A program made the position numbers and the translations under genes. The notes under the pieces are model-generated. The model saw only the letters and a list, made by a program, of their open reading frames with translations, did not search any database and was not told the origin of the DNA. This document shows, piece after piece, positions 23 through 52,546 of a DNA stretch of 64,000 bases; position 1 is the first letter of the stretch, and every line of letters begins with the position of its first letter. Origin of the DNA: Sneathiella sp. P13V-1 (GTDB lineage Bacteria; Pseudomonadota; Alphaproteobacteria; Sneathiellales; Sneathiellaceae); the NCBI RefSeq assembly GCF_015143595.1, contig NZ_WYEU01000001.1:868001-932000 (forward strand). The letters are read 5' to 3'.

Positions 23-1432
23 ATGGCGCAGCAGGAACTTCAGCATATAGCCGATTTGTATCAAGAGGCCTGGCAGAATATTCACCAGCGCCTTCGCCAT
101 GAATATGGGGAAGCCACTTACAATTCCTGGCTAAAAAATATCGAACTGGACCGTGTTCAGAACGGCCATGTTGTCATGACCCTCCCCACCAAATTTTTGC
201 GGGACTGGGTTATCAACAATTATGCAAACCGCATTCGCCAGATCTGGGCATTGGAATCTGAAGAAATTCAGTCCATTGACATTCAGGTACGCGATGCGTC
301 GGTGGCCCAAGGCACGGCACCAAAAATCTCCGCCAACTCCGCCCCGACACCAGCTGCGGGTAATATTAAATCCCTGCCGCAAGACGGGGAAAATGATCAA
401 TCCAGCTTTATCTCACAGCTGGATCCGCGTTTTACCTTTGAAAATTTCGTTGTTGGTAAATCAAATGAACTGGCCCATGCCGCGGCCCGCCGTGTGGCAG
501 AAGCAAAAGATAACATTCCTTTTAACCCGCTTTATCTGTATGGCGGGGTGGGTCTTGGTAAAACACACTTGATGCATGCCATTGGCCATGCAATTGCAGC
601 CAACTGCCCGGAAAAAAAGGTCCTGTATCTTTCAGCCGAGAAGTTTATGTACCGGTTCATCCGGGCGCTGCGATTTAAAGACACCATGAACTTCAAGGAC
701 CAGTTTCGCTCCGTTGATGTGCTGATGATTGACGATGTCCAGTTTATCTCTGGCAAAGACAGCACTCAGGAAGAATTTTTCCATACTTTCAATGCGTTGG
801 TGGACCAGAATCATCAGATTATTATATCTGGTGACCGCTCCCCTACAGATCTTGAAGGCATGGAAGAGCGGATGCGCTCTCGCCTTGGCTGGGGACTTGT
901 CGCTGATATACACCCGACAGACTACGAACTACGCCTTGGTATTTTGCAGTCCAAGGTCGAACAGGCTGAAGTGGATATTGACCACCGTATTCTGGAGTTT
1001 CTCGCCCATCGCATCACCTCCAACGTGCGGGAGCTGGAAGGCGCGCTGAACCGTGTTCTCGCTTATTCCGATCTGGTAGGACGCGCGGTGACGCTGGAAA
1101 GCACTCAGGAAGTCCTTCGCGACCTTCTTCGGGCCAATGATCGCCGGACGACCATTGAAGAGATCCAGAAGCGCGTAGCTGAGCATTTCAACATCCGCAT
1201 GTCCGATATGCATTCCGCCCGCCGGGCCCGTGCAGTTGCGCGCCCACGCCAAGTGGCCATGTATCTGGCAAAACAGTTAACCACCCGATCTTTACCTGAA
1301 ATTGGGCGAAAATTTGGGGGCAGGGACCATACAACGGTCATGCATGCTGTCCGCCAGATCGATAAATTGCGGGCTGATGACATTTCGCTTTCAGAGGACA
1401 TCGAACTTCTGAAACGAATGCTGGAAAGCTGA
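23..1432 (+). CDS. dnaA: Chromosomal replication initiator DnaA
   Basis: AAA+ initiator that binds DnaA boxes at oriC, melts the origin and loads the helicase. The 469-residue protein has the DnaA N-terminal domain (about 1-85), a linker, Walker A GGVGLGKTH near residue 174, Walker B VLMIDDVQF near 232, and the C-terminal DNA-binding domain with the signature around ARPRQVAMYLAKQLT (about 405-420) followed by GGRDHTTVMHA. Length and motifs are normal. The ATG follows 22 bases of window, so its promoter is not visible. dnaN follows after 305 bases. No DnaA-box cluster surrounds the gene inside the window; the likely origin is about 37 kb away beside hemE. Confidence 0.98.
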   Translation: MAQQELQHIADLYQEAWQNIHQRLRHEYGEATYNSWLKNIELDRVQNGHVVMTLPTKFLRDWVINNYANRIRQIWALESEEIQSIDIQVRDASVAQGTAPKISANSAPTPAAGNIKSLPQDGENDQSSFISQLDPRFTFENFVVGKSNELAHAAARRVAEAKDNIPFNPLYLYGGVGLGKTHLMHAIGHAIAANCPEKKVLYLSAEKFMYRFIRALRFKDTMNFKDQFRSVDVLMIDDVQFISGKDSTQEEFFHTFNALVDQNHQIIISGDRSPTDLEGMEERMRSRLGWGLVADIHPTDYELRLGILQSKVEQAEVDIDHRILEFLAHRITSNVRELEGALNRVLAYSDLVGRAVTLESTQEVLRDLLRANDRRTTIEEIQKRVAEHFNIRMSDMHSARRARAVARPRQVAMYLAKQLTTRSLPEIGRKFGGRDHTTVMHAVRQIDKLRADDISLSEDIELLKRMLES

Positions 1433-36909: not shown

Positions 36910-37739
36910 AGGGTTCGCATATCCTTCTCATCTGTGAAACGGCGATTATAAAGGGTAATGATCTGCGCAGCGGTTTCCTCGACCGATCGACGGGAGACAT
37001 CAATAATGGGCCAGCCCTGCTTTGTACAAAGTTTTCGGGCAAAAATAACTTCCTGCTTAATCCGCTCTAAATCCACATAAGAGGTTTCATTTTTCTCCTG
37101 CAAAGAAAGCAGCCTGTTTTTACGGATCTGTGATAACCGATCCGGGCTTGTGGTCAGGCCTACGACAAACGGATTTTTCAAATGAAATAACTGATCGGGC
37201 AGGGGACAATCCAACACAATAGGGACATTGGCCGTTTTGATCCCCCGGTGGGATAAATAGAAAGACGTTGGTGTTTTAGAGGTCCGAGAGACCCCAACCA
37301 GAACTATATCCGCATCTTCCAGCCCTTCGGGCATCTGACCATCATCATGGGCCATGGTATAATTCAAGGCCTCGATGCGGGCGAAATACTGCTGGTCCAG
37401 CGCATGTTGCCTTCCAGGGCGATTTCGGGCTTCCTGACCCAAATACTGTGAAAAGGCCGCAAGAACCGGATCCAGAACAGAAACACAAGGCACCCCCAGA
37501 TTTCGGCATCCCTTTTCCAGAATGCCGCGAAGCTCCTTATTCACCAGCGTAAAAAGCACCAGACCCGGATTTTTCTTAATAGAATCAATAATATCATCCA
37601 ATTGGCGAACGGTGCGTGTCATGGACCAGACATGTTCAATTGGAACAGCACTTTCAAATTGAACCAAGGATGCCTTTGCCATGGATTGCAGGGTTTCACC
37701 TGTTGAATCTGATACCAGATGCAAATGAAATTCACCCAT
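36906..37739 (-). CDS. ppsR: Pyruvate, water dikinase / PPDK regulatory protein
   Basis: DUF299 bifunctional kinase-phosphorylase that switches phosphoenolpyruvate synthase or pyruvate phosphate dikinase on and off by ADP-dependent phosphorylation. ATG 37739 gives 277 residues starting MGEFHLHLVSDSTGETLQ, the standard N-terminus, with GGGACG upstream. The P-loop-like VGVSRTSKTPTSFYLSHRG lies near 147. It is first gene of its leftward operon and borders the candidate origin, as DUF299 genes do in Caulobacter. Confidence 0.94.
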   Translation of the reverse strand: MGEFHLHLVSDSTGETLQSMAKASLVQFESAVPIEHVWSMTRTVRQLDDIIDSIKKNPGLVLFTLVNKELRGILEKGCRNLGVPCVSVLDPVLAAFSQYLGQEARNRPGRQHALDQQYFARIEALNYTMAHDDGQMPEGLEDADIVLVGVSRTSKTPTSFYLSHRGIKTANVPIVLDCPLPDQLFHLKNPFVVGLTTSPDRLSQIRKNRLLSLQEKNETSYVDLERIKQEVIFARKLCTKQGWPIIDVSRRSVEETAAQIITLYNRRFTDEKDMRTL

Positions 37740-38160
37740 ATGTTCGTCCCGCTTAGATTTTAACGTCAACCACTTGCCTGTGGATTATGTGGATAACAGG
37801 GATAACACGGCAGTTGGGATAGGTTCAAAATTTTTATTCCCCGCTTACCCCTTTTTTTGAGGTGTAAATCTACACGGGTGCATAACTGTAAATACATGTT
37901 TTGAAAAATGGGGATAAATACCTGTATAGGCAGGTTTTAGAAAGTTATCCCCGCTATTCACGTTTTTATGCACACCGTAAAAACGCGGTTATTAAGCTGT
38001 TATCCGCAAATTCCTGAAAAGACTGGATTCAATCCACAAATTTCCTGTAAAGAATGTGCATGAAAAATCATCCCCGTTATCCACAGGTATCAACTACAAC
38101 AACTACCTTTTTATATAAATATATATTGATAGGGATAACTTTTTTAAGGAAAGCAGCTCC
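37740..38160. other. oriC: Candidate replication origin oriC
   Basis: A 421-base gap between divergent ppsR and hemE. It has three exact DnaA boxes (TTATNCACA): 37788-37796 on the minus strand, 37966-37974 and 38077-38085 on the plus strand. One-mismatch boxes lie at 37779-37787, 37877-37885 and 38000-38008, and several GGGATAA-type weak elements recur between. An AT tract at 38108-38130 next to hemE could be the unwinding element. One GANTC methylation site is at 38026. The Caulobacter origin lies in the same hemE/DUF299 position. Confidence 0.85.
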
Positions 38161-39207
38161 GTGCCAAACTCTACAGACAAGCGTTTTTTAAAAGCTCTGA
38201 ATAAGGAAAAACTGGATCGTCCTCCTTTTTGGCTCATGCGCCAAGCGGGTCGCTACCTTCCAGAATATCGCCAGACACGGGCAGACGCAGGCTCTTTTCT
38301 TGATCTTTGCTACACACCAAAGCTTGCCGAAGAAGTAACATTGCAGCCGCTTCGCCGCTACGATATGGATGCTGCCATTCTTTTTGCGGATATTCTGCTT
38401 ATCCCGGATGCTTTGGGGCAGCCTCTTGCTTACAAGGAAGGCGAAGGACCTGTTCTGGATCCCGTTCGCTCGGCAAAAGAGCTAAGCTCATTGTCTATGG
38501 ATCGGCTTCATGATCATCTAGCGCCGGTGTATGAGACCGTTAGCCGCCTTAGTAGCTCCATCCCTAGCCATTGTAGCTTAATAGGCTTTGCGGGTGCTCC
38601 CTGGACCGTGGCGACCTATATGGTGGAGGGTCGTGGGTCCAAAGATTATGCCAATATCAAAAAATGGATGTACTCAGATCCTGCTGGTTTTCAGCAACTG
38701 ATGGATATTCTGGTCGTTTCGACTGCGGAATATTTAATCCACCAAATCAAGGCCGGGGCTGAAGCTGTTCAGATCTTTGATACCTGGGCCGGTGTCTTGC
38801 CAGATGTAGAATTTCGCCGTTGGGTGATCGAACCCACCAAACGCATCGTAGAACTTATTCGGAAAGACTATCCGGACTTCCCTGTGATTGGCTTTCCAAA
38901 AGGGGTTGCGGGCAATCTGATGGAATTTGTGAAGGAAACAGGGGTAACAGGGGTGAGCCTTGATGCTTCTGCACCACTAGAGTGGGCCAAACGGGAAATT
39001 CAGCCGCATGTGACGGTTCAGGGTAATCTGGATCCGATCCTGTTGGTGGCGGGTGGACAGGCCATGGTGGACCGCATTCATCAAATTCTGGAAACGTTTA
39101 AGGACGGGTCGCACATTTTCAATCTGGGGCACGGGATTATTCCGCAAACTCCCCCTGAAAATGTGGGCTTGCTTGCAGACACTTTAAAAAACTGGAAAGC
39201 AAGTTAA
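38161..39207 (+). CDS. hemE: Uroporphyrinogen decarboxylase
   Basis: Decarboxylates uroporphyrinogen III to coproporphyrinogen III in heme synthesis. The 348-residue protein carries the signature [21 protein letters not shown] near 21, the catalytic-pocket [12 protein letters not shown] near 80, and [15 protein letters not shown] near 321. The start is GTG 38161 with AAGGA upstream. hemH follows after 12 bases. Its promoter must lie in or near the AT-rich tract of the candidate origin. Confidence 0.96.
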
Positions 39208-40939: not shown

Positions 40940-42199
40940 ATGAATCTTCAAGAACTTAAAAAGAAATCCCCACCAGAACTTCTCGCAGCAGCAGAAGAAC
41001 TTGAAATTGAAAATGCATCAACGATGCGTAAACAGGAACTGCTTTTTGCCATATTAAAGCAGAAAGCCGAAAACGGTGAAGAGATCACCGGTGGGGGCGT
41101 TCTTGAGATCTTGTCGGATGGTTTTGGTTTCCTCCGATCCCCTGACGCCAACTATCTGGCGGGTCCTGATGACATTTATGTCTCTCCAAGCCAGATCCGC
41201 AGATTTTCTCTACGTACAGGTGATACGGTAGAGGGTGAAATTCGCAGCCCTAAAGACGGGGAACGATATTTTGCCCTTCTTAAAGTTCAGAAGATCAATT
41301 TTGAAGATCCTGAAAAAGCCCGTCATAAGATCAATTTTGACAATCTGACACCTCTCTATCCGGATGAGCGTATTAAGCTGGAAACGCCGGACCCAACCAG
41401 TAAAGATATTTCCTCTGCCCGGGTGATTGACCTGGTCTCCCCACAAGGTAAAGGACAGCGTGCCTTGATCGTGGCGCCGCCAAGAACTGGTAAAACTGTT
41501 CTTCTTCAAAATATTGCGAATTCCATCACCACTAATAATCCGGAAGTCTATCTGATCGTTCTTCTGATTGATGAACGCCCGGAAGAGGTGACGGATATGA
41601 AACGCTCTGTGAATGGTGAAGTGATTTCCTCCACCTTTGATGAGCCTGCCTCCCGTCACGTTCAGGTGGCTGAGATGGTAATCGAGAAAGCAAAACGTCT
41701 TGTTGAGCATAAACGGGATGTTGTGATCCTTCTGGACAGCATCACTCGCCTTGCACGCGCCTATAACACGGTGGTTCCATCCAGTGGTAAGGTTTTGACC
41801 GGTGGTGTGGATGCGAACGCTCTGCAGCGTCCTAAGCGCTTCTTTGGTGCCGCCCGTAATATTGAGGAAGGCGGCTCTCTCACAATCTGTGCGACAGCCC
41901 TGATTGATACGGGCTCCCGTATGGATGAGGTGATCTTCGAAGAATTTAAAGGCACCGGTAACTCCGAGATTATTCTGGATCGCAAACTTTCTGACAAACG
42001 TGTCTTCCCAGCCATCGACATCACGAAGTCTGGTACCCGTAAGGAAGAGCTTCTTGTGGATCCGGCAACCTTGCAGAAAATGTGGGTTCTTCGCCGTATT
42101 CTCAACCCAATGGGCACAACGGATGCGATGGAATTCCTGCTCGACAAGTTGAAATCCAGCAAGACAAATGACGATTTCTTCGACTCTATGAATACATAG
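40940..42199 (+). CDS. rho: Transcription termination factor Rho
   Basis: Hexameric RNA-dependent ATPase that terminates transcripts. The 419-residue protein has the N-terminal RNA-binding domain ([21 protein letters not shown] near 55), Walker [17 protein letters not shown] near 176, [15 protein letters not shown] near 262 with the Walker B aspartate, and the Q/R-loop region near [20 protein letters not shown]. Length and motifs are normal. It ends at a strong terminator. Confidence 0.97.
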
Positions 42200-42216
42200 A
42201 AGATCTGGATATTTTT

Positions 42217-42248
42217 CTTAAAAAGGCGCAGAAAACAGCGCCTTTTTT
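42217..42248 (+). terminator. Intrinsic terminator of rho
   Basis: AAAAGGCGC / GCGCCTTTT stem with an 8-base loop and six Ts at 42243-42248, 25 bases past the rho stop. Confidence 0.88.
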
Positions 42249-42263
42249 AATGTCTGGTTAATG

Positions 42264-42283
42264 GTAATAACATATGTTATTAC
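42264..42283. promoter_or_regulatory. Perfect 20-bp palindrome, probable toxin-antitoxin operator
   Basis: Half-site GTAATAACAT followed by its exact reverse complement, 30 bases upstream of the AbrB-type antitoxin start. Type II antitoxins with AbrB DNA-binding domains usually repress their own operon, so this is the likely operator. The chance of a perfect 20-bp palindrome at a given site is about one in a million. Confidence 0.7.
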
Positions 42284-42313
42284 TAATTTGATTTAAATTT
42301 TATCCATTGCCTG

Positions 42314-42987: not shown

Positions 42988-43960
42988 ACAAAGTAAAGAT
43001 GGTGGATCCGGTTGTTTTCCGGCCTTCCAGATCTTCATGGGCTTTGGCAGCCTCGGACAAATGATACCGTTGTCCGATATTCACTTTCACGATGCCTTTT
43101 TCGACCATATCAATAAGATCTGCAGCTGATTTGACCAAATCTTCGCGTTTGTCGTTATATGTCATCAAGGTAGGGCGGGTGACATAAAGGGAACCTTTTG
43201 CCGCCAAAATACCCAGATCCACATCATTTACCGGACCAGTGGCATTACCGTAAGATACCATCAAACCACGGGGTTGCAGGCAATCCAGCGATCCTTCAAA
43301 TGTATCCTTACCAATACTGTCATAGACAACAGGAACACCTTTTCCATCAGTGATTTCCATAACACGTTTCTGGAAATCTTCTTCGCGGTAATTGATGGTG
43401 TGATGACATCCATTGGCTTTGGCAAGTTCGGCTTTTTCTTCTGATCCAACCGTACCGATCACTGTTGCCCCAATATGATTGGCCCACTGACAGGCCATCA
43501 ATCCGACACCGCCCGCTGCGGCGTGAAAGAGGATCGTATCCCCTTGTTTCACGTGAAACGTCCGTTGCAGAAGATATTCTGTGGTCATGCCCTGAAGCAT
43601 CATGGCAGCAGCCGTTTCATCATCAATGCTGTCCGGCATTTTGATCAGAATGTCAGCGGGCATGACTCGCTCTTCTGCGTAGGCCCCGATTGGACGCCCA
43701 GCATAAGCAACGCGGTCACCAACGGCAAATTCAGTAACACCTGATCCCAATTCCACAATAACACCGGCAGCTTCCATACCTGGTGTGTTTGGAAGAGGGG
43801 CAGGGTAGAGACCTGTTCTGAAATAGACATCGATAAAGTTCAAACCAACAGCTTTATGTTGAATGCGAACTTCACCGGGACCGGGAGATCCAACCTCCAC
43901 ATCTTCCCATTTCATAACTTCCGGTCCACCGACCTCATGAAAACGAATTGCTTTTGTCAT
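42986..43960 (-). CDS. Quinone oxidoreductase (QOR, medium-chain dehydrogenase family)
   Basis: NADPH-dependent quinone reductase of the zinc-independent QOR group. The 324-residue protein begins MTKAIRFHEVGGPEVMKWEDV, has GLNFIDVYFRTGLYPAPLP near 54, and the nucleotide motif HAAAGGVGLMACQWANHIGA near 144; no structural zinc cysteines are present. The codons for TFHVKQGD near 133 hold a parS-like site, so part of this sequence is under dual constraint. It lies 32 bases upstream of nothing else on its strand and downstream of ogt. Confidence 0.9.
   Translation of the reverse strand: MTKAIRFHEVGGPEVMKWEDVEVGSPGPGEVRIQHKAVGLNFIDVYFRTGLYPAPLPNTPGMEAAGVIVELGSGVTEFAVGDRVAYAGRPIGAYAEERVMPADILIKMPDSIDDETAAAMMLQGMTTEYLLQRTFHVKQGDTILFHAAAGGVGLMACQWANHIGATVIGTVGSEEKAELAKANGCHHTINYREEDFQKRVMEITDGKGVPVVYDSIGKDTFEGSLDCLQPRGLMVSYGNATGPVNDVDLGILAAKGSLYVTRPTLMTYNDKREDLVKSAADLIDMVEKGIVKVNIGQRYHLSEAAKAHEDLEGRKTTGSTIFTL
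43545..43560. promoter_or_regulatory. parS: parS-like site 1, inside the quinone oxidoreductase gene
   Basis: TGTTTCACGTGAAACG matches the parS consensus TGTTTCACGTGAAACA at 15 of 16 positions. It lies about 5.4 kb to the right of the candidate oriC and 7.2 kb before parA. Confidence 0.8.
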
Positions 43961-43992
43961 CTTTTACCTCTTCAGCGCGCCCCGCTTTAAAC

Positions 43993-44472
43993 TCAAAGAT
44001 CCAGTGTTTGCTGCTGTGGGGGAAGGGCTCCTTCCAGTTGCAACAATATTTTTTTGGTATCCACACCACCAAGGCCTGAAAAACCGCCCATTTCCTTACC
44101 TGCTGCCAAGACACGATGGCAGGGGATAATAACAGGAATGGGATTAAGTCCGCAGGCATTACCAACGGCTTGGGCTGAACTGTCAATTTCCTTGGCAATC
44201 TCTCCATAAGACTTAGTGGATCCTCCAGGAATGGCAGACATGGCAGCACAAACCTGCTTTTGAAAATCCGACCCTGGTGGATTTAGGGGCAGATCAAAAT
44301 CAAGCCGGTTTCCGTCAAAATAGTCATTGAGCTGATCTACGGCTTCTTTCAACAGGTCTGTTTCTGTTTGCCATTCTTCCGGCACCCATCCCCAATCCAG
44401 TGAAATAATGGCTCCGTTTTCTTCTGTCACTGTCAGATCCCCGATGGGACTATGCATACAAAGTTGCGGCAT
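43993..44472 (-). CDS. ogt: Methylated-DNA-protein-cysteine methyltransferase
   Basis: Suicide repair enzyme that transfers alkyl groups from O6-alkylguanine to its own cysteine. The 159-residue protein has the active site IIPCHRVLAAGKEMGGFSGLGG near 124 and the recognition-helix region GSTKSYGEIAKEIDSSAQAVGNA near 98. ATG 44472 was chosen because GGAGGG stands 7-8 bases upstream; TTG 44487 would lie on that ribosome-binding site. It starts one base after the stop of the YyaL-type gene. Confidence 0.93.
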   Translation of the reverse strand: MPQLCMHSPIGDLTVTEENGAIISLDWGWVPEEWQTETDLLKEAVDQLNDYFDGNRLDFDLPLNPPGSDFQKQVCAAMSAIPGGSTKSYGEIAKEIDSSAQAVGNACGLNPIPVIIPCHRVLAAGKEMGGFSGLGGVDTKKILLQLEGALPPQQQTLDL

Positions 44473-44473
44473 C

Positions 44474-46495
44474 CTAATTCCCTCCAAACAGTTTATGGAT
44501 CTCTGAGATGCTGGTTACAGGTTCAGAGCAGGTTGGACCGGTACAAAGATAAAGGGTTGTTTTTCCCCCTTTCGCCGTTTTTCCGTTGGCAGGGTGGTCA
44601 AATGGCAGATGTTCGGTGTTTTTGAGAACATTCACCACTTTATTAGGCAGGCTATAGTCTTTCAAGGCACTTAAGAAGGCCTTTGTTTCTTCCTCATTTC
44701 GATCCCCAACGATGATGATTTGCTTGGCAGCGATCAGGGTTTCAAAATTATTGAGAAAGGTCGAAAGTGGGAAAAAGTTGCGTCCTATTTCCACAGAGAA
44801 CACCTGCACCATCTCTTTGGCTTTTTCAAAATAGTCCCGGCCGCCTGTCAGATAATGCAAGCGTGCCAGGACGTCTATCATGATGCCATTGCCGGCGGGT
44901 GTGGCATTATCATTGGCATTTTTCGTTCTGATAATCAGGCTTTCCGCATCATCAGCGGTGAGGCAATATCCGCCATCTTTCGCCCAGAAATGTTTATTGA
45001 GGATACCTACCCATTGCTGCGCCTGATCCATATAGATGGCGCGGCCCGTAGTTTCATATAGGGTGAGGGCAGCACGGCACATATTGGCATAGTCATCCAA
45101 CAATCCTGAATGCTTCGCCTGCCCCAGACGATAGCTGTGATAGAGACGGCCATCTTTTTCCATAGCAGTGCTGGTAATGGCGAAAAAGGCACTTTCTGCC
45201 CGTTCCAGCCATTTGGGTTCGTTATAAAAATCACCGGCTTTTGCCAATGTGGTGATCATCATGCCATTCCAGTCAGCAAGGACCTTATCATCCAGACCTG
45301 GACGGATACGTTTCTCCCGCTCTTTAAACAGGATGTTGCGGCAGTCTTTCAAAAACTCTTCTGTTTCTTCATCTAACCGGGTTGGATAGGCGAGACGATT
45401 GAGGATATTCACTCCTTCCCAGTTACCTTCGAGGTCTACATCATAGATCTCAAGGAACTGTTCTGCTTTATCGCCAAGTAGAGTTTTGATCTCCGCCTCA
45501 TCCCAAACATAGAACTTGCCTTCCACACCTTCACTGTCTGCGTCAATGGTGGCGGAAAAAGCCCCATTTTCGGCAATCATTTCCCGAAGGAGCCAGTCAA
45601 TGGTCTCGTAAATACGATCCTTAAACAGATCATTTTTATTTTCTGCCTGCACCAACAACATCAGATCCAGAATCTGGGCATTGTCATAAAGCATTTTCTC
45701 AAAATGGGGCACAAGCCAGGCAACATCAGTGGCGTAGCGGGCATATCCACCCCCCAGATGATCATAAATGCCCCCTTGTGACATATGAGTGAGGGCTTTG
45801 ATCACCGCTTCTGCAAGACGTTCGTTGCCCGTCCTCAGGTAACTTCGCCACATATTTTCAAGAACATAAGTGTGTGGGAATTTGGGGGCAGATCCGATGC
45901 CGCCATGTTCCGGGTCGGCTTCTTCCGAATATCGTTCTGCAATACGGTCCAGAACCTCCAAAGTAAGTTTTGGGCGGTCCCCTTCACCGGTTTCGTTCAT
46001 TTTTTTAAGGGATTTACGAAGAATATCGCGGTTTTTACTGACCTTCTCAGGCTCATTCTTGAAAATTCCATGAACAGTTTGAAGAACATGTTTAAACCCC
46101 GGACGACCATAACTGTCTTCGATCGGGAAATAGGTGCCACCCCAGAAAGGCTCTCCTTTAGAGGTCAGGAACATGGTTAGCGGCCATCCGCCTTGCTCCC
46201 CAAGAAGGGCGAGGGCGGTTTGATAAATCTGATCAATATCCGGGCGCTCTTCGCGGTCCACTTTGATATTGATATATAGATCATTCATTAGGGCGGCGGT
46301 CGCCGGATCTTCAAAACTTTCATGGGCCATCACATGGCACCAGTGACAGGCCGCGTATCCCACGCTCAACAGAATGGGCTTACCTGTTTTTTTAGCTTCT
46401 TCCAACGCTTCTTTCCCCCAGGGGCGCCAATGCACAGGGTTGTCTTTATGCTGAAGAAGATAAGGGCTTGTTTCCTGTCCGAGGACATTTTCCAT
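44474..46495 (-). CDS. YyaL-type thioredoxin-domain protein (DUF255)
   Basis: A 673-residue homologue of bacterial YyaL and mammalian SPATA20. The N-terminal thioredoxin-like domain contains SVGYAACHWCHVMAHESFEDP near 43, with a CxxC, followed by an alpha/alpha-barrel resembling N-acylglucosamine epimerases (GGIYDHLGGGYARYATDVAWLVPHFEKMLYDNAQ near 240). Biological role unknown. ATG 46495, with GGAAA upstream, gives the family N-terminus MENVLGQETSPYLLQHKDNP. It is probably cotranscribed with ogt. Confidence 0.9.
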   Translation of the reverse strand: MENVLGQETSPYLLQHKDNPVHWRPWGKEALEEAKKTGKPILLSVGYAACHWCHVMAHESFEDPATAALMNDLYINIKVDREERPDIDQIYQTALALLGEQGGWPLTMFLTSKGEPFWGGTYFPIEDSYGRPGFKHVLQTVHGIFKNEPEKVSKNRDILRKSLKKMNETGEGDRPKLTLEVLDRIAERYSEEADPEHGGIGSAPKFPHTYVLENMWRSYLRTGNERLAEAVIKALTHMSQGGIYDHLGGGYARYATDVAWLVPHFEKMLYDNAQILDLMLLVQAENKNDLFKDRIYETIDWLLREMIAENGAFSATIDADSEGVEGKFYVWDEAEIKTLLGDKAEQFLEIYDVDLEGNWEGVNILNRLAYPTRLDEETEEFLKDCRNILFKEREKRIRPGLDDKVLADWNGMMITTLAKAGDFYNEPKWLERAESAFFAITSTAMEKDGRLYHSYRLGQAKHSGLLDDYANMCRAALTLYETTGRAIYMDQAQQWVGILNKHFWAKDGGYCLTADDAESLIIRTKNANDNATPAGNGIMIDVLARLHYLTGGRDYFEKAKEMVQVFSVEIGRNFFPLSTFLNNFETLIAAKQIIIVGDRNEEETKAFLSALKDYSLPNKVVNVLKNTEHLPFDHPANGKTAKGGKTTLYLCTGPTCSEPVTSISEIHKLFGGN

Positions 46496-46601
46496 GTTTT
46501 TTTCCAGTTTTTCGCTGCAAAGAACGGCTTTGATTGATCCTGAATGACTATTCACCTAATCTCTGTTCCATCACCGTCAAGGGACAGAGGAGCCTTCTGC
46601 C

Positions 46602-46847
46602 ATGAAGATTAAACTTGATATTGACTGTACACCAGAGGAAGCAAGAAAATTTTTTGGTTTACCGGATGTAGAGCCCATGCAGCAGGCCCTCATGAAGGAG
46701 CTACAGGACCGGATGTCAGAGAATATTGCTAATCTGGACCCTGAAAAAATGATGAAAACATGGCTTCCTGCAGGAATGCAGGGATTGGATCAGATGCAAA
46801 ATATGTTCTGGAACGCCATGTCTGGCAAAACCGACAAAGGTAGCTGA
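46602..46847 (+). CDS. DUF6489-type small protein
   Basis: An 81-residue protein, MKIKLDIDCTPEEARKFFGL..., of a small alphaproteobacterial family that usually precedes mnmE. It is acidic, helical and Met-rich (DPEKMMKTWLPAGMQGLDQM), with no known function. AGGAG precedes the ATG. mnmE starts 12 bases after its stop, so both are likely in one transcript. Confidence 0.82.
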   Translation: MKIKLDIDCTPEEARKFFGLPDVEPMQQALMKELQDRMSENIANLDPEKMMKTWLPAGMQGLDQMQNMFWNAMSGKTDKGS

Positions 46848-46859
46848 CGGATTTAAGGT

Positions 46860-48182
46860 ATGGATACTGTATTTGCATTGGCCAGCGGCCGGGGACGGGC
46901 GGGGATTGCTGTTGTTCGTCTTTCAGGCCCTGCCGCCTTTGATGCTGTTGAGAAACTTACCGATAAACCTCTGCCGGACGTCAGATATGCAGCGGTTCGG
47001 GAAGTTAAATCACTGGATCGATCCTTTCTTATCGATGAAGCAATGGTTCTTTTGTTCAAAGGTCCTCACAGTTTTACAGGTGAAGATGTGGCGGAAATCC
47101 ATCTTCATGGGGGTCCCGCCATTGTTGAGGCCTTATTTGAACAGCTTCAATCCCTGGACGGGTTTCGCCCGGCTGACCCCGGAGAATTTACGCGGCGCGC
47201 CTTCGAACATGGCCGGATGGATTTGACCGCCGCGGAAGGCATTGGGGATCTGGTAAATGCAGAAACCCGTGCACAGCATCAACAGGCCCTTCGTCAGATG
47301 CGTGGGGCGCTGGGGGAGATGTATTCCCGTTGGCGCGAAGAGCTCATTGGCAGCCTTGCCCATCTGGAAGCGGATATTGATTTTCCCGACGAAGATCTTC
47401 CCGAAGGTGTCGCAGGCGCGATCCGTCCGAAGATTGAAAAACTCAGACAGGAAATTGAGGCCCACTTGGCAGATGGCGGAAGAGGGGAGAAAATTCGGGA
47501 AGGCCTGGATGTGGCCATTATCGGTGCCCCCAATGTGGGGAAATCAAGCCTTCTCAATTATCTCGCCAAGCGGGATGTGGCCATCGTTTCTGACCAGGCG
47601 GGAACCACCCGGGACATTGTGGAAGTTCATCTGGATCTTGGTGGATATCCTGTCACCATTGCGGATACCGCGGGGATCCGGGATGCGGAAGATCTCGTGG
47701 AACAGGAAGGGGTTCGCCGTGCTGTGAAGCGGGCGGAAGAAGCAGACATAATTATCTCCATGACCGCAGATGGTAGTCCTAACCTCGCAGAAAACCTCGA
47801 TTTATCCGCAGGTAATTACATATATTATTACCTCAAGAATAAGGTGGATTTAACCGATACAGGTGCCCGCTCAGATGGGGATCGGGAGTTTGAGGTTTCC
47901 GTTAAATTTGATCTAGGCGTTGAGGCGTTCTTGAAGAAGCTGACAGAGGATGTTGTCTCCTTGTTGGATGTCTCAGGCGCACCTTCTCTCACCCGGATGC
48001 GACATCGTCAGGCATTGGAAGAATGTGTCGCATCACTCTACCGGTTTGATACGGCACCTGATCCCGAACTGGCTGCAGAAGATGTCAGATTGGCGACACG
48101 ATCCCTTGGTCGAATCACAGGACGGGTGGATGTGGAAGATATCCTGGATGTGGTTTTTGGGGATTTCTGTATCGGGAAATAG
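46860..48182 (+). CDS. mnmE: tRNA modification GTPase MnmE
   Basis: With MnmG forms 5-carboxymethylaminomethyl groups on U34 of certain tRNAs. The 440-residue protein begins with the formyl-THF-binding domain (DTVFALASGRGRAGIAVVRLSG), has a G domain with IIGAPNVGKSSLLNYLAKR near 219 and ADTAGIRDAEDLVEQEGVRR near 268, and ends with the catalytic CIGK motif. An exact parS site lies just beyond its stop. Confidence 0.96.
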   Translation: MDTVFALASGRGRAGIAVVRLSGPAAFDAVEKLTDKPLPDVRYAAVREVKSLDRSFLIDEAMVLLFKGPHSFTGEDVAEIHLHGGPAIVEALFEQLQSLDGFRPADPGEFTRRAFEHGRMDLTAAEGIGDLVNAETRAQHQQALRQMRGALGEMYSRWREELIGSLAHLEADIDFPDEDLPEGVAGAIRPKIEKLRQEIEAHLADGGRGEKIREGLDVAIIGAPNVGKSSLLNYLAKRDVAIVSDQAGTTRDIVEVHLDLGGYPVTIADTAGIRDAEDLVEQEGVRRAVKRAEEADIIISMTADGSPNLAENLDLSAGNYIYYYLKNKVDLTDTGARSDGDREFEVSVKFDLGVEAFLKKLTEDVVSLLDVSGAPSLTRMRHRQALEECVASLYRFDTAPDPELAAEDVRLATRSLGRITGRVDVEDILDVVFGDFCIGK

Positions 48183-48196
48183 GTCAATTTGTGACA

Positions 48197-48212
48197 TGTT
48201 TCACGTGAAACA
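48197..48212. promoter_or_regulatory. parS: parS site 2, between mnmE and mnmG
   Basis: Exact 16/16 match to TGTTTCACGTGAAACA in the intergenic gap, 15 bases after the mnmE stop. Confidence 0.92.
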
Positions 48213-48278
48213 TTCTTCTAATTTACCCAGTGTCATTATTGTTTTGACTTTTGGGGGAAGCCCCCTAAATTGGCGCTC

Positions 48279-50144
48279 ATGATGGTATATGATGTAATTG
48301 TAATTGGGGGTGGACACGCCGGTTGTGAGGCTGCTGCAGCCTCGGCCAGACTAGGCGCAAACACCCTTTTATTAACCCATAAGATTGACACAATCGGCGC
48401 CATGTCCTGTAACCCGGCGATCGGGGGATTGGGCAAAGGCCATCTGGTGCGTGAAATAGATGCCCTTGATGGTGTGATGGGTCGTGTAGCGGATGCAGCT
48501 GGTATTCAGTTCAGATTGCTGAACAGACGGAAGGGTCCAGCGGTAAGAGGTCCACGCGCCCAATCAGATCGTAAACTCTATAAAGCCGCTATGCAGGAAA
48601 CTCTGTTCAATCAGGATAATCTGGAAATCAGGGAAGGGGCAGCTGAAGACCTTGTGGTCAAAGATGGTGAAGTCTCTGGTGTTATTCTGGCTGATGGTAC
48701 TGAAATTCCGTGCGGGAAAGTGATCCTGACAACAGGGACATTCCTTCGTGGCCTGATCCATATGGGGGAAAAGAAAATCCCTGCGGGCCGTATTGGGGAT
48801 GATCCGTCAAACGGTCTTTCCGAAACCCTAAACAAAGCCGGTTTTGATCTTGGACGTTTGAAAACAGGAACACCTGCGCGACTGGATGGGAAAACCATCA
48901 ACTGGTCCATTTTGGAAGAACAGCCGGGTGATGAGGATATAGTGCCTTTCTCTTTTCTCACGAAAGAGATTACCACACCCCAGATCCCGTGCCACATTAC
49001 ATATACCACCGAAGCCACCCATCAGGTGATCCGCGACAATTTGCACCGGGCCCCGATGTATTCGGGTGAGATTACAGGAACAGGTCCGCGTTACTGTCCG
49101 TCTATTGAAGACAAGGTTGTTCGCTTTGCTGATAAATCCAGTCACCAGATTTTCCTGGAACCAGAAGGGCTGGATGTGGACACCATTTATCCAAACGGAA
49201 TGTCGACATCTTTACCAGCTGATGTGCAGGTGGAATTCCTCCGCTCCATTCCCGGATTGGAGAAGGTAGAGTTTTATCAGCCGGGTTATGCCATTGAATA
49301 TGATTTCGTGGACCCACGGGAGCTGAAACCAACTCTCGAAACCCGGAAGCTCAAAAACCTTTATCTGGCAGGCCAGATTAACGGAACTACCGGATATGAG
49401 GAAGCAGCTGCGCAAGGGTTGATGGCGGGTCTTAATGCGGCGAGAAGTGCAGGGGATCAGGGTGCCTTCATTCTGGATCGCGCCGATGCCTATATCGGTG
49501 TGATGATTGATGATTTGATTACCCGTGGCACGCAAGAGCCATATCGCATGTTCACATCTCGTGCCGAATATCGTTTGATCCTTCGGGCCGATAATGCAGA
49601 CAGCCGACTAACTGGACTGGGTATGGATATTGGCTGTATTGAATATGAACGGGAAAAAGCGTTTACTGAAAAGCAGGAAGCACTCAACACTGCTCATGAT
49701 CAATTCGCTTCTTTGAATCTGACACCTAACGAAGCCAAACAACATGGTTTGAACGTTAATCAGGATGGGGTGAGGCGATCTGCCTCCGATCTGTTGGCTT
49801 ATCCAAATATTGATATGGATGATATTATTCGGATCTGGCCAGAACTACAGCATTACTCAAAAGAGGTATTGGAACAGGTCGCTATTGACGCCCAATATAA
49901 AGGGTATCTGGAACGTCAGAAAGCGGACATTCAGGAGTTCCGGAAAGACGAAGGCCTTCTCCTTCCTGCTGATCTTGATTATAAGAAAATCGGCGGCATG
50001 TCGGCTGAGGTTTCCCAGAAACTGGAAGATGCACGTCCAGATACATTGGGGCAGGCAGCGCGTATTTCTGGCGTGACCCCGGCAGCGCTGACAGCCTTGC
50101 TGTCTTATGTCAAACGCGGTGACCATCGTAAACGGGTAGGATAA
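48279..50144 (+). CDS. mnmG: tRNA uridine-5-carboxymethylaminomethyl modification enzyme MnmG
   Basis: FAD-dependent partner of MnmE. The 621-residue protein starts [21 protein letters not shown] with the dinucleotide fold, then [22 protein letters not shown] near 43, and [35 protein letters not shown] near 172, all MnmG signatures. ATG 48279 or 48282 is likely; TTG 48270 sits at better distance from GGGGGAAG. That ribosome-binding site is in a GGGGG / CCCCC hairpin at 48253-48265, which could limit initiation. Confidence 0.96.
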
Positions 50145-50153
50145 CCCCTTTAA

Positions 50154-50762
50154 ATGACTGAACAGGAATTCGCATCCCTTACCGGTGTTTCACGTGAAAC
50201 ATTGGAAAAGCTCTCACGCTATGTTGCCTTGTTGAAGAAATGGCAAAAGGCCATTAATTTGGTGAGTAACTCTACGCTTTCCGATGCCTGGCGCCGTCAT
50301 ATTCTGGATAGCTATCAGATTCTGGAACATGCGCCATCCAATGGGAAAGTTTGGATGGACTTTGGTAGTGGGGCAGGTTTTCCAGCTTTGGTCGTGGCCA
50401 TATGCAGTGATTATGACGTTCACGTAGTGGAAAGTGATCAGAGAAAATGCCAGTTCATGCGTGAGGTTTCACGTGAAACATCGGCAAATATCACCGTCCA
50501 TAACTGTCGAATTGAAGAAATGCAGCCCTTAAAAGCGGATGTTATCTCCGCTCGTGCGCTGGCATATTTGGAAAAACTGTTCGAGTATTGTGTGCCATTT
50601 TCGTCTCCAGAAACAACTTTTTTGTTCTTAAAGGGACAAGATGTAGATGCGGAATTGACCAATGCCGCAAAATGTTGGAATATAGATAGTATCAAACACC
50701 CAAGTTTATCTAGTGAAGAGGGCTGCATTTTGGAATGCAGGAATGTTCGCCCTCTCGATTAA
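50154..50762 (+). CDS. rsmG: 16S rRNA (guanine-527-N7)-methyltransferase
   Basis: Methylates G527 of 16S rRNA. The 202-residue protein has the SAM-binding MDFGSGAGFPALVVAI near 67 and SARALAYLEKLFEY near 132. Two parS palindromes are within the gene, each encoding VSRET (residues about 12-16 and 105-109). It sits between mnmG (9-base gap) and parA (11-base gap). Confidence 0.95.
   Translation: MTEQEFASLTGVSRETLEKLSRYVALLKKWQKAINLVSNSTLSDAWRRHILDSYQILEHAPSNGKVWMDFGSGAGFPALVVAICSDYDVHVVESDQRKCQFMREVSRETSANITVHNCRIEEMQPLKADVISARALAYLEKLFEYCVPFSSPETTFLFLKGQDVDAELTNAAKCWNIDSIKHPSLSSEEGCILECRNVRPLD
50186..50201. promoter_or_regulatory. parS: parS site 3, inside rsmG
   Basis: Exact 16/16 match to TGTTTCACGTGAAACA, 33 bases into rsmG, where it encodes VSRET. 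parS at this place in rsmG is common in bacteria. Confidence 0.93.
50465..50480. promoter_or_regulatory. parS: parS-like site 4, inside rsmG
   Basis: GGTTTCACGTGAAACA matches the consensus at 15 of 16 positions, with the central palindrome TTTCACGTGAAA intact. It lies 279 bases from site 3 and about 310 bases before parA. Confidence 0.85.
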
Positions 50763-50773
50763 AGGGGCGACAG

Positions 50774-51577
50774 ATGGAAGAGCTTAAGATGATTGGATCC
50801 TCCCGGATCCTGGCAATTGCCAATCAGAAGGGTGGTGTTGGTAAAACCACAACAGCCATTAATCTTGCAACTGCGCTTGCGGCGGTTGGAAAAACTGTTC
50901 TTGTTATCGATATTGATCCGCAGGGAAATGCCAGTACAGGTCTCGGTATTGACCGTAATGAGCGTGAAAATAGCGTCTATGAAGTGTTGATGGGGGAAGT
51001 CACACTGGAAGAAGCTATCTGCAAAAGTGTTATTCCTGGTCTGGATTTGGTCCCATCTACCGCTGATTTGACCGGTGCAGAGCTTGAGCTCATCGAAATG
51101 GATCGTCGTAGTCATCGTCTTGTGGAAGCAATTAGACCTGTAAAAGACAGATATGATTACATCCTGATCGATTGCCCACCGTCCTTGAATCTTTTGACAT
51201 TGAACGCGCTTGTGGCTGTTCAATCCGTTATTGTCCCGCTTCAATGCGAGTTTTTCGCTCTTGAAGGCCTAAGTCTTCTGATCAAAACCATTGAAAGAGT
51301 CAGGAATACCCTTAATCCTACCCTTGAAATTCAGGGTGTGGTCTTGACCATGTTTGATCGTCGTAACAATTTATCTGATCAGGTGGCACAAGATGTCCGT
51401 GATTATCTTGGGGAGAAGGTCTATCAGACAGTTATCCCGAGAAATGTAAAGGTCTCAGAGGCACCAAGTCATGGCAAACCGGCCCTGATTTATGATCATA
51501 AATGTGCGGGTAGCCAAGCCTATATCAAACTTGCAAGTGAAGTTATTCGGCGCGAAAAAGCCCTTTATGCAGCCTAA
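50774..51577 (+). CDS. parA: Chromosome partitioning ATPase ParA
   Basis: Deviant Walker ATPase that moves ParB-parS complexes to segregate origins. ATG 50774 has AAAGGGG upstream and gives 267 residues. The Walker A ANQKGGVGKTTTAINLATAL lies near 16, IDIDPQGNASTGLG near 46 and IDCPPSLNLLTLNAL near 128. parB begins 21 bases after its stop. Confidence 0.96.
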   Translation: MEELKMIGSSRILAIANQKGGVGKTTTAINLATALAAVGKTVLVIDIDPQGNASTGLGIDRNERENSVYEVLMGEVTLEEAICKSVIPGLDLVPSTADLTGAELELIEMDRRSHRLVEAIRPVKDRYDYILIDCPPSLNLLTLNALVAVQSVIVPLQCEFFALEGLSLLIKTIERVRNTLNPTLEIQGVVLTMFDRRNNLSDQVAQDVRDYLGEKVYQTVIPRNVKVSEAPSHGKPALIYDHKCAGSQAYIKLASEVIRREKALYAA

Positions 51578-51598
51578 AATCTGATAGCGAATAGATAA

Positions 51599-52546
51599 AT
51601 GTCTGAAGATACTGGAAAGAAAAAACTGGGGCGGGGTCTTTCCGCACTCCTTGGTGATGATTCTGCGGCGGACTATTCAGAATTGGATAAGGTTCGCACC
51701 TCAAAAGACGTGCCTGTGGAATATCTGCATCCAAGCCCTTTTCAGCCAAGACAGGATTGGGACCAGGAAGCCTTACAAAGTCTGGCAGATTCCATTGCCG
51801 AAAAAGGTATTTTACAGCCAATTTTGGTACGCCGGGATCCAAATAACTCAGATTTGTTTGAGATTATCGCGGGTGAACGCCGTTGGCGCGCCGCCCAGAT
51901 CGCTAAACTCCATGAAGTACCAGTTATTATTAAAGACCTATCTGACGTAGATAGTCTTGAAATTGCAATTATTGAGAATATTCAGCGTGAAGATCTTTCC
52001 GCAATCGAAGAAGCGGAAGGGTATAAGCGCTTAAGTGATGAATTTAATTATACTCAAGAGACGCTGGCAAAGCAGTTAGGCAAAAGCCGTTCTCACATCA
52101 CCAATATCATGCGGCTATTGAACTTACCGACATCTGTGCAACTCATGATCAGAGATGGAGATTTGAGTTCCGGCGCTGCACGCGCACTAATCACGGCTGA
52201 TAATCCTGAGAAATTGGCGCGAAAAGTGGTGAAAGAGGGCCTTTCTGTCCGCCAAGTTGAGAAATTGGTGCAGAAAAAACCCTCAAATAGAGCGAGCTCA
52301 GTGTCCCAGAGTACGAAGGATCAAGATACGCTCGCTCTAGAGGCCGATTTATCTGCGGCTATTGGGCTCAAAGTTGCCATCAATCATAAGGAAGATCACG
52401 GTGGGCAGATCACTATTTCTTATGAACATCTGGATCAATTGGATGACATTTGCCGTAGATTGACCCGTCAAGCGGGCCAAACTCATGAAGATGAAGATCA
52501 TTTCGAAGGCGATATGACATCTGCCTTGGACGAAGATTTTCATTAA
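51599..52546 (+). CDS. parB: Chromosome partitioning protein ParB
   Basis: CTP-dependent DNA clamp that loads at parS and spreads. The 315-residue protein starts with the ParA-contact segment KKKLGRGLSALLGDD, has IQPNPFQPR-type sequence HPSPFQPRQDWD near 40, the CTP-binding GERRWRAAQIAKL near 91 and ENIQREDLSAIEEAEGY near 122, and the HTH LAKQLGKSRSHITNIMRLL near 158. The C-terminus (about 250-315) is the dimerisation domain. Its DNA targets are the four parS-like sites listed. Confidence 0.96.
   Translation: MSEDTGKKKLGRGLSALLGDDSAADYSELDKVRTSKDVPVEYLHPSPFQPRQDWDQEALQSLADSIAEKGILQPILVRRDPNNSDLFEIIAGERRWRAAQIAKLHEVPVIIKDLSDVDSLEIAIIENIQREDLSAIEEAEGYKRLSDEFNYTQETLAKQLGKSRSHITNIMRLLNLPTSVQLMIRDGDLSSGAARALITADNPEKLARKVVKEGLSVRQVEKLVQKKPSNRASSVSQSTKDQDTLALEADLSAAIGLKVAINHKEDHGGQITISYEHLDQLDDICRRLTRQAGQTHEDEDHFEGDMTSALDEDFH

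Follow-up and report, generated by a model that had tools for sequence, protein, structure and literature searches.

The stretch of DNA analyzed here, referred to as the window, is 64 kb long and corresponds to positions 868001-932000 of contig C1 in a nine-contig, 3.71-Mb genome (G000) whose closest relatives by hemE are Sneathiella. The genes dnaA and dnaN lie at its left end, and far to their right a 391-bp gap is flanked by a PF03618 gene and a PF01208 gene, in agreement with the ppsR (DUF299)/hemE setting given in a preliminary description of this DNA. The features of the gap and its surroundings, in window coordinates, are:

23..1432, plus strand: dnaA, about 37 kb from oriC, with Tyr210 aligned to Asn187 of B. 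subtilis DnaA
1738-2856: dnaN, at the left end of the window with dnaA
36906..37769, minus strand: ppsR/DUF299 (PF03618 kinase-PPPase, COG1806; hmmscan E 9e-97), left boundary gene of the origin
37770..38160, no strand: intergenic region of 391 bp read as oriC from its box cluster, skew switch and conservation in 24 Sneathiella-group origins
37779..37808, minus strand: left DnaA-box array of TAATCCACA (37779), exact TTATCCACA (37788) and weak TTATCCC (37799)
37877..37917, minus strand: one-mismatch DnaA boxes TTATGCACC (37877) and TTATCCCCA (37909), conserved in part
37945..37953, plus strand: weak site TTATCCCCG with a W-box-like TCCCC core, mean column identity 0.95 (24 relatives)
37966..37974, plus strand: exact DnaA box TTATGCACA, mean column identity 0.62, the lowest among the boxes
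38000..38008, plus strand: one-mismatch DnaA box TTATCCGCA, mean column identity 0.74
38055..38063, minus strand: one-mismatch DnaA box TCATGCACA, mean column identity 0.78
38070..38085, plus strand: ATCCCCG and exact DnaA box TTATCCACA, the proposed anchor box beside the unwinding site
38091..38105, minus strand: five DnaA-trio-like trinucleotides, CAA CTA CAA CAA CTA on the top strand, 3'-GTT GAT GTT GTT GAT-5' on the trio strand
38108..38147, no strand: AT-rich duplex unwinding element, predicted from nearest-neighbour energies
38132..38140, minus strand: weak site GGGATAACT at the hemE-proximal side of the AT tract, mean column identity 0.91
38161..39207, plus strand: hemE, uroporphyrinogen decarboxylase (PF01208 URO-D; E 6.5e-122), right boundary gene of the origin
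43545, 48197, 50186 and 50465: parS sites
50735..52546, plus strand: parA (ParA-type ATPase, 50735-51577) and parB (51599-52546)

The three exact TTATNCACA boxes reported previously are all present, at 37788-37796 on the minus strand and at 37966-37974 and 38077-38085 on the plus strand. One-mismatch boxes accompany them as described, but there are five of these within 37779-38085 rather than three (37779, 37877, 37909, 38000, and 38055), so that this core contains eight exact or one-mismatch boxes. An additional one-mismatch box at 38196, inside hemE, raises the best 420-bp stretch to nine boxes, while separate stretches of this length elsewhere in the window hold two at most. Exact boxes are not significantly enriched over the whole 64 kb (5 versus 2.1 expected, a number reached in 8 of 100 shuffles), and it is therefore their clustering that constitutes the signal. 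Four of the repeated GGGATAA elements mentioned in the preliminary description were also found in the gap (37799, 37911, 37945, and 38132), and its statement that there is no box cluster at dnaA-dnaN holds, as the first 4 kb contain no exact box and only two one-mismatch boxes, both inside dnaA. Genome-wide, a single exact-box cluster, located before dnaB, is tighter than that of oriC among the matches listed (100 of 113).

The origin region has an AT content of 63%, versus approximately 51% for the genome on average. The AT-rich tract noted earlier is real: nearest-neighbour energy profiles identified 38108-38147, directly to the right of the anchor box and trinucleotides, as the 40-mer of lowest stability in the 64 kb. 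A further very unstable tract, which has no box cluster, is found at 42186-42304, just downstream of rho (40940-42199). The reported proximity of the partitioning locus was likewise confirmed, with the four parS sites (43545-50465) and parAB (50735-52546) all within 15 kb of the origin region.

GC skew was measured on sampled stretches of three of the nine contigs (C1, C2, and C3, the other six being small) and was fitted using a step model corrected for gene coding strand, with bootstrap. In the C1 samples the skew is negative to the left of approximately 906 kb and positive to the right with few exceptions, and the step on this 1.44-Mb contig falls at 906.5 kb, or window 38.5 kb (bootstrap 5-95%, 904.5-914.4 kb, or window 36.5-46.4 kb). 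As this interval is approximately 10 kb wide, and a step at 914.5 kb is merely 1.5 log-likelihood units worse than the best, skew alone cannot single out the 391 bp. Nevertheless, the sign switch that the preliminary description had predicted occurs on the sampled stretches at window 38.5 kb and not at dnaA (23-1432), which bears out its placement of the origin 37 kb away from that gene. The C2 samples have positive skew that becomes mostly negative from near 0.9 Mb, those of C3 are negative, and no second lasting minus-to-plus switch was found in the stretches sampled on these two contigs. Within the otherwise negative-skew arm of C1, a segment at 750001-762000 (L009) has positive skew and a GC content of 0.43, and may represent an inverted or acquired island. 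A single-contig relative (G002, 3.94 Mb) starts at dnaA, as located by tblastn, and has hemE at 36.97 kb; its skew is mostly negative up to approximately 36 kb, turns positive approximately 36-40 kb from dnaA, and reverts roughly half a chromosome further on, near 1.9 Mb. In another relative (G008), hemE lies 36.4 kb from its own dnaA, and with approximately 37 kb in G002 this indicates that the spacing of the two genes is conserved.

In all 11 Sneathiellales loci inspected, multiple boxes lie upstream of hemE, with far fewer on its downstream side. We aligned 24 non-redundant Sneathiella-group gaps of 363-391 bp and found that their best-conserved blocks are DnaA-type sites. The left block, ATAACAGGGATAACA, is nearly invariant in the relatives, and it is joined by a middle block, AAGTTATCCCC, and a right-hand block, ATCCCCGTTATCCACA, together with GGGATAA just before hemE; another block conserved in the 24 gaps, GGATTTTATCCCCA, has diverged in the window. 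The layout TCCCC-N6-CAC at the anchor box is present in 24 of 24 relatives.

Based on the box cluster, the skew step, the genus-wide conservation at hemE, the adjoining unstable tract, the nearby parS and parAB, and the gene order shared with Caulobacter and Rickettsia, we conclude that 37770-38160 is almost certainly the single chromosomal replication origin, as proposed when an origin was first placed between ppsR and hemE. The location itself is ordinary. A hemE-COG1806 origin has been verified in Caulobacter, a prediction exists for Rickettsia, and this arrangement is considered probably ancestral (PMC1914354); Sphingomonadaceae have an origin near hemE in common (PMC4741004). Because an origin adjacent to hemE and distant from dnaA is established for Alphaproteobacteria (PMC1914354), its position in this genome is not surprising. 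The analysis extends a known origin class by one genus and provides a usable origin sequence for Sneathiella.

The dnaA-dnaN neighbourhood is a very common bacterial origin site, and the divergent gap between ppsR and hemE must hold promoters too, both of which would suit an origin at dnaA-dnaN with the hemE boxes regulating the hemE or ppsR promoters. We regard this as very improbable, as dnaA-dnaN has no box cluster, a skew step placed there is 34-37 log-likelihood units worse, and G002, which starts at dnaA, retains mostly negative skew until approximately 36 kb. The triple cluster on C2 (431527-431558; L106:3527-3558), with three exact boxes in 32 bp, is tighter than oriC, but that it is the origin or a second origin is hardly credible, given its site between rplI and dnaB and the positive GC skew on both sides. 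This cluster was set aside as an origin because it lies in the dnaB promoter region with no skew change, and it is more likely to be a DnaA-responsive dnaB promoter. In relatives, 15 of 21 loci have at least one exact box no more than 260 bp upstream of dnaB, and an inverted pair spaced by 12 bp is frequent. Such boxes before dnaB suggest DnaA control of the replicative helicase gene. A box pair on C3 (272832-272882) was also discarded, as it falls inside a long open reading frame resembling a translation elongation factor.

Within the origin, the array at 38091-38105 joins the anchor box to the AT-rich tract, and its first unit begins 5 bp past the box 9-mer. The array keeps one register in 24 of 24 relatives, with zero insertions or deletions over the five units. 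Of the 120 top-strand units, 110 start with C (96 of 96 at places two to five) and 115 end with A, the middle base being A in 72, T in 37, and C in 11. The trio strand therefore reads 3'-G[T/A/G]T-5', its middle base being T (72 units), A (37), or G (11). A plus-strand reading of the array was rejected, as in the basal unwinding system it is the strand running 3' to 5' away from the box that is used (PMC8287927). We calculated expectations for such arrays from dinucleotide-preserving shuffles and counted related species separately, so that the counts are not independent. Under these conditions, five-of-five C-first units located 3-8 bp from a box were found in 23 of the 24 Sneathiella-group origins versus 0.0 expected, and in 45 of 106 other alphaproteobacterial hemE upstream regions versus 1.6 expected, many of the latter belonging to Azospirillum and marine Caulobacterales. 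Five-of-five middle-A units occurred in none of the Sneathiella group (0.5 expected) and in 7 of the 106 others (1.9 expected).

A scan that ignored gene position, using the pattern TCCCC-N6-CAC-N{3,20}-CWACWACWAC over 385 alphaproteobacterial genomes, matched 19 of them, and the match was directly upstream of hemE in 13, nine of which are outside the genus. In one of these, a genome of another alphaproteobacterial family (L174, G074:C36:13067-13102), a DnaA-box-like site upstream of hemE is followed by five CAA units, none of which is canonical, i.e., none has a middle adenine on the proposed trio strand. Five-of-five arrays are absent, under the rules used, from over half of the other alphaproteobacterial hemE loci, including those of Hyphomonadaceae, and we therefore make no class-wide claim. 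Six loci of Hyphomonas/Henriciella type (L060, L062, L063, L065, L087, and L097) lack a C-first array upstream of hemE and share a block like TTTTCCACGAGACTC...CTTAATAATGATAAG, which may be another kind of opening module. When dnaA flanks from outside the Alphaproteobacteria were scanned as a control, few clear middle-A arrays emerged (L232, L237, and L240), too few for a firm contrast.

In the basal unwinding model, DnaA-trios have a conserved middle adenine, and a survey of origins required at least three 3'-NAN-5' units; 15% of the origins surveyed had no recognised trios, and the authors suspected deviant trios lacking the middle adenine (PMC8287927). A B. subtilis structure has Asn187 contacting the middle adenine and Arg202 and Glu228 contacting the first guanine; in that species, thymine is one of the bases that substitute poorly at the middle position (PMC10721633). 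In the window, a DnaA box lies within 16 bp of a period-three array, with the 5-bp spacer seen in 24 of 24 relatives, but there is no run of at least three consecutive middle-adenine trios (3'-NAN-5'), the longest run being one. As the module departs from the middle-adenine rule in the register observed, we refer to it as a variant. The residues of the window DnaA aligned with Asn187, Arg202, and Glu228 are Tyr210, Lys225, and a retained Glu. At the Asn187 position, 42 alphaproteobacterial DnaAs have Tyr (37), Phe (3), or His (2), versus Asn (7), Thr (6), Gln (3), or Ala (2) in 18 DnaAs of other Pseudomonadota. This amounts to one phylogenetic contrast and is suggestive only, and the position varies outside the Alphaproteobacteria too.

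We lean towards the view that many Alphaproteobacteria use a variant trio, 3'-GNW-5', that would be read mainly by its first guanine, with the middle base free and a Tyr (rarely Phe or His) in DnaA replacing Asn. It is also possible, if rather doubtful, that the array is an ordinary DnaA-trio in which middle-base variation is functionally irrelevant and only the canonical CTA (3'-GAT-5') units are used. In favour of this, 22 of 24 origins contain one or more middle-A units, and some changes are tolerated in B. subtilis (PMC10721633), but only 2 of the 24 reach the stated minimum of three consecutive middle-A units (PMC8287927), two have none in this register, and variation at the middle base contrasts with near-invariant first and third bases. 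In the Sneathiella group, the array is located approximately 60-70 bp upstream of the hemE start and could instead be an unstructured leader or promoter element of hemE rather than a single strand bound by DnaA. CA-rich leaders can aid translation. We nonetheless consider a hemE element improbable, as the array is register-locked to a DnaA box in 24 of 24 relatives, directly adjoins the lowest-stability tract, and belongs to a gene-blind box-and-array pattern that recurs in front of hemE in nine genomes from beyond the genus.

If the variant trio is correct, it would represent the deviant, middle-adenine-free trio that was suspected, not described, by Pelliciari et al. 2021. Should a large part of the class read the first guanine while the middle base varies, both origin-finding rules and the base-capture model would have to be revised. 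The variant is directly testable through the corresponding change at the Asn187 position. We searched the open literature for trios in Alphaproteobacteria and found no description, and an earlier one is possible in subscription papers or preprints, which were outside this search.

Taking Caulobacter Cori and the basal unwinding system of B. subtilis as analogues, we propose that DnaA would bind both the exact boxes and those with one mismatch, along with the weak TCCCC/TTATCCC sites, and that a DnaA-ATP filament would then grow rightward from the 38077-38085 box onto the minus strand at 38091-38105. This filament would open the AT-rich tract at 38108-38147, DnaB loading would come next, and two forks would then depart in opposite directions.

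With its intergenic place, a box cluster that is near-unique among the exact sites listed (100 of 113), high AT content with an AT-rich tract, and a change in skew sign, this origin belongs to the hemE/COG1806 class, of the Caulobacter/Rickettsia kind, without the CtrA sites of Caulobacter. It resembles Caulobacter crescentus Cori in its flanking genes (hemE/COG1806), AT-rich tract, and distance from dnaA (PMC1914354, PMC4285127), as well as in combining strong boxes with weak W-box-like TCCCC sites, a comparison made with the published description; the Sneathiella TCCCC cores match the Caulobacter W-box TCCCCA (PMC4285127). Unlike Cori, the Sneathiella origin has TTATCCACA boxes in place of TGATCCACA G-boxes, and no CtrA site (TTAA-N7-TTAA, at most one mismatch) was found in 37701-38160. 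E. ruminantium is likewise without CtrA sites at this threshold, and such sites are therefore not required of all members of the class (PMC1914354). The hemE-COG1806 origin of Rickettsia prowazekii has the same flanking genes and was predicted by the same criteria (PMC1914354), but its prediction includes CtrA and IHF sites, for which there is no full match in Sneathiella; a search for IHF sites at the origin returned two matches, each with one mismatch. Compared with the basal unwinding system of B. subtilis, the spacer is shorter (5 bp, against 10-13 bp as a rule), the middle adenine conserved there is present in 37 of 120 units, and Asn187 is replaced by Tyr. The order of elements is the same, with a DnaA box, a short spacer, a period-three array, and an opened region (PMC6669920, PMC8287927, PMC10721633), which in Sneathiella is the predicted one. 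In both, the array strand has its 5' end pointing away from the box, and in the Sneathiella DnaA, Arg202 (as Lys), Glu228, and Glu183 are kept in character.
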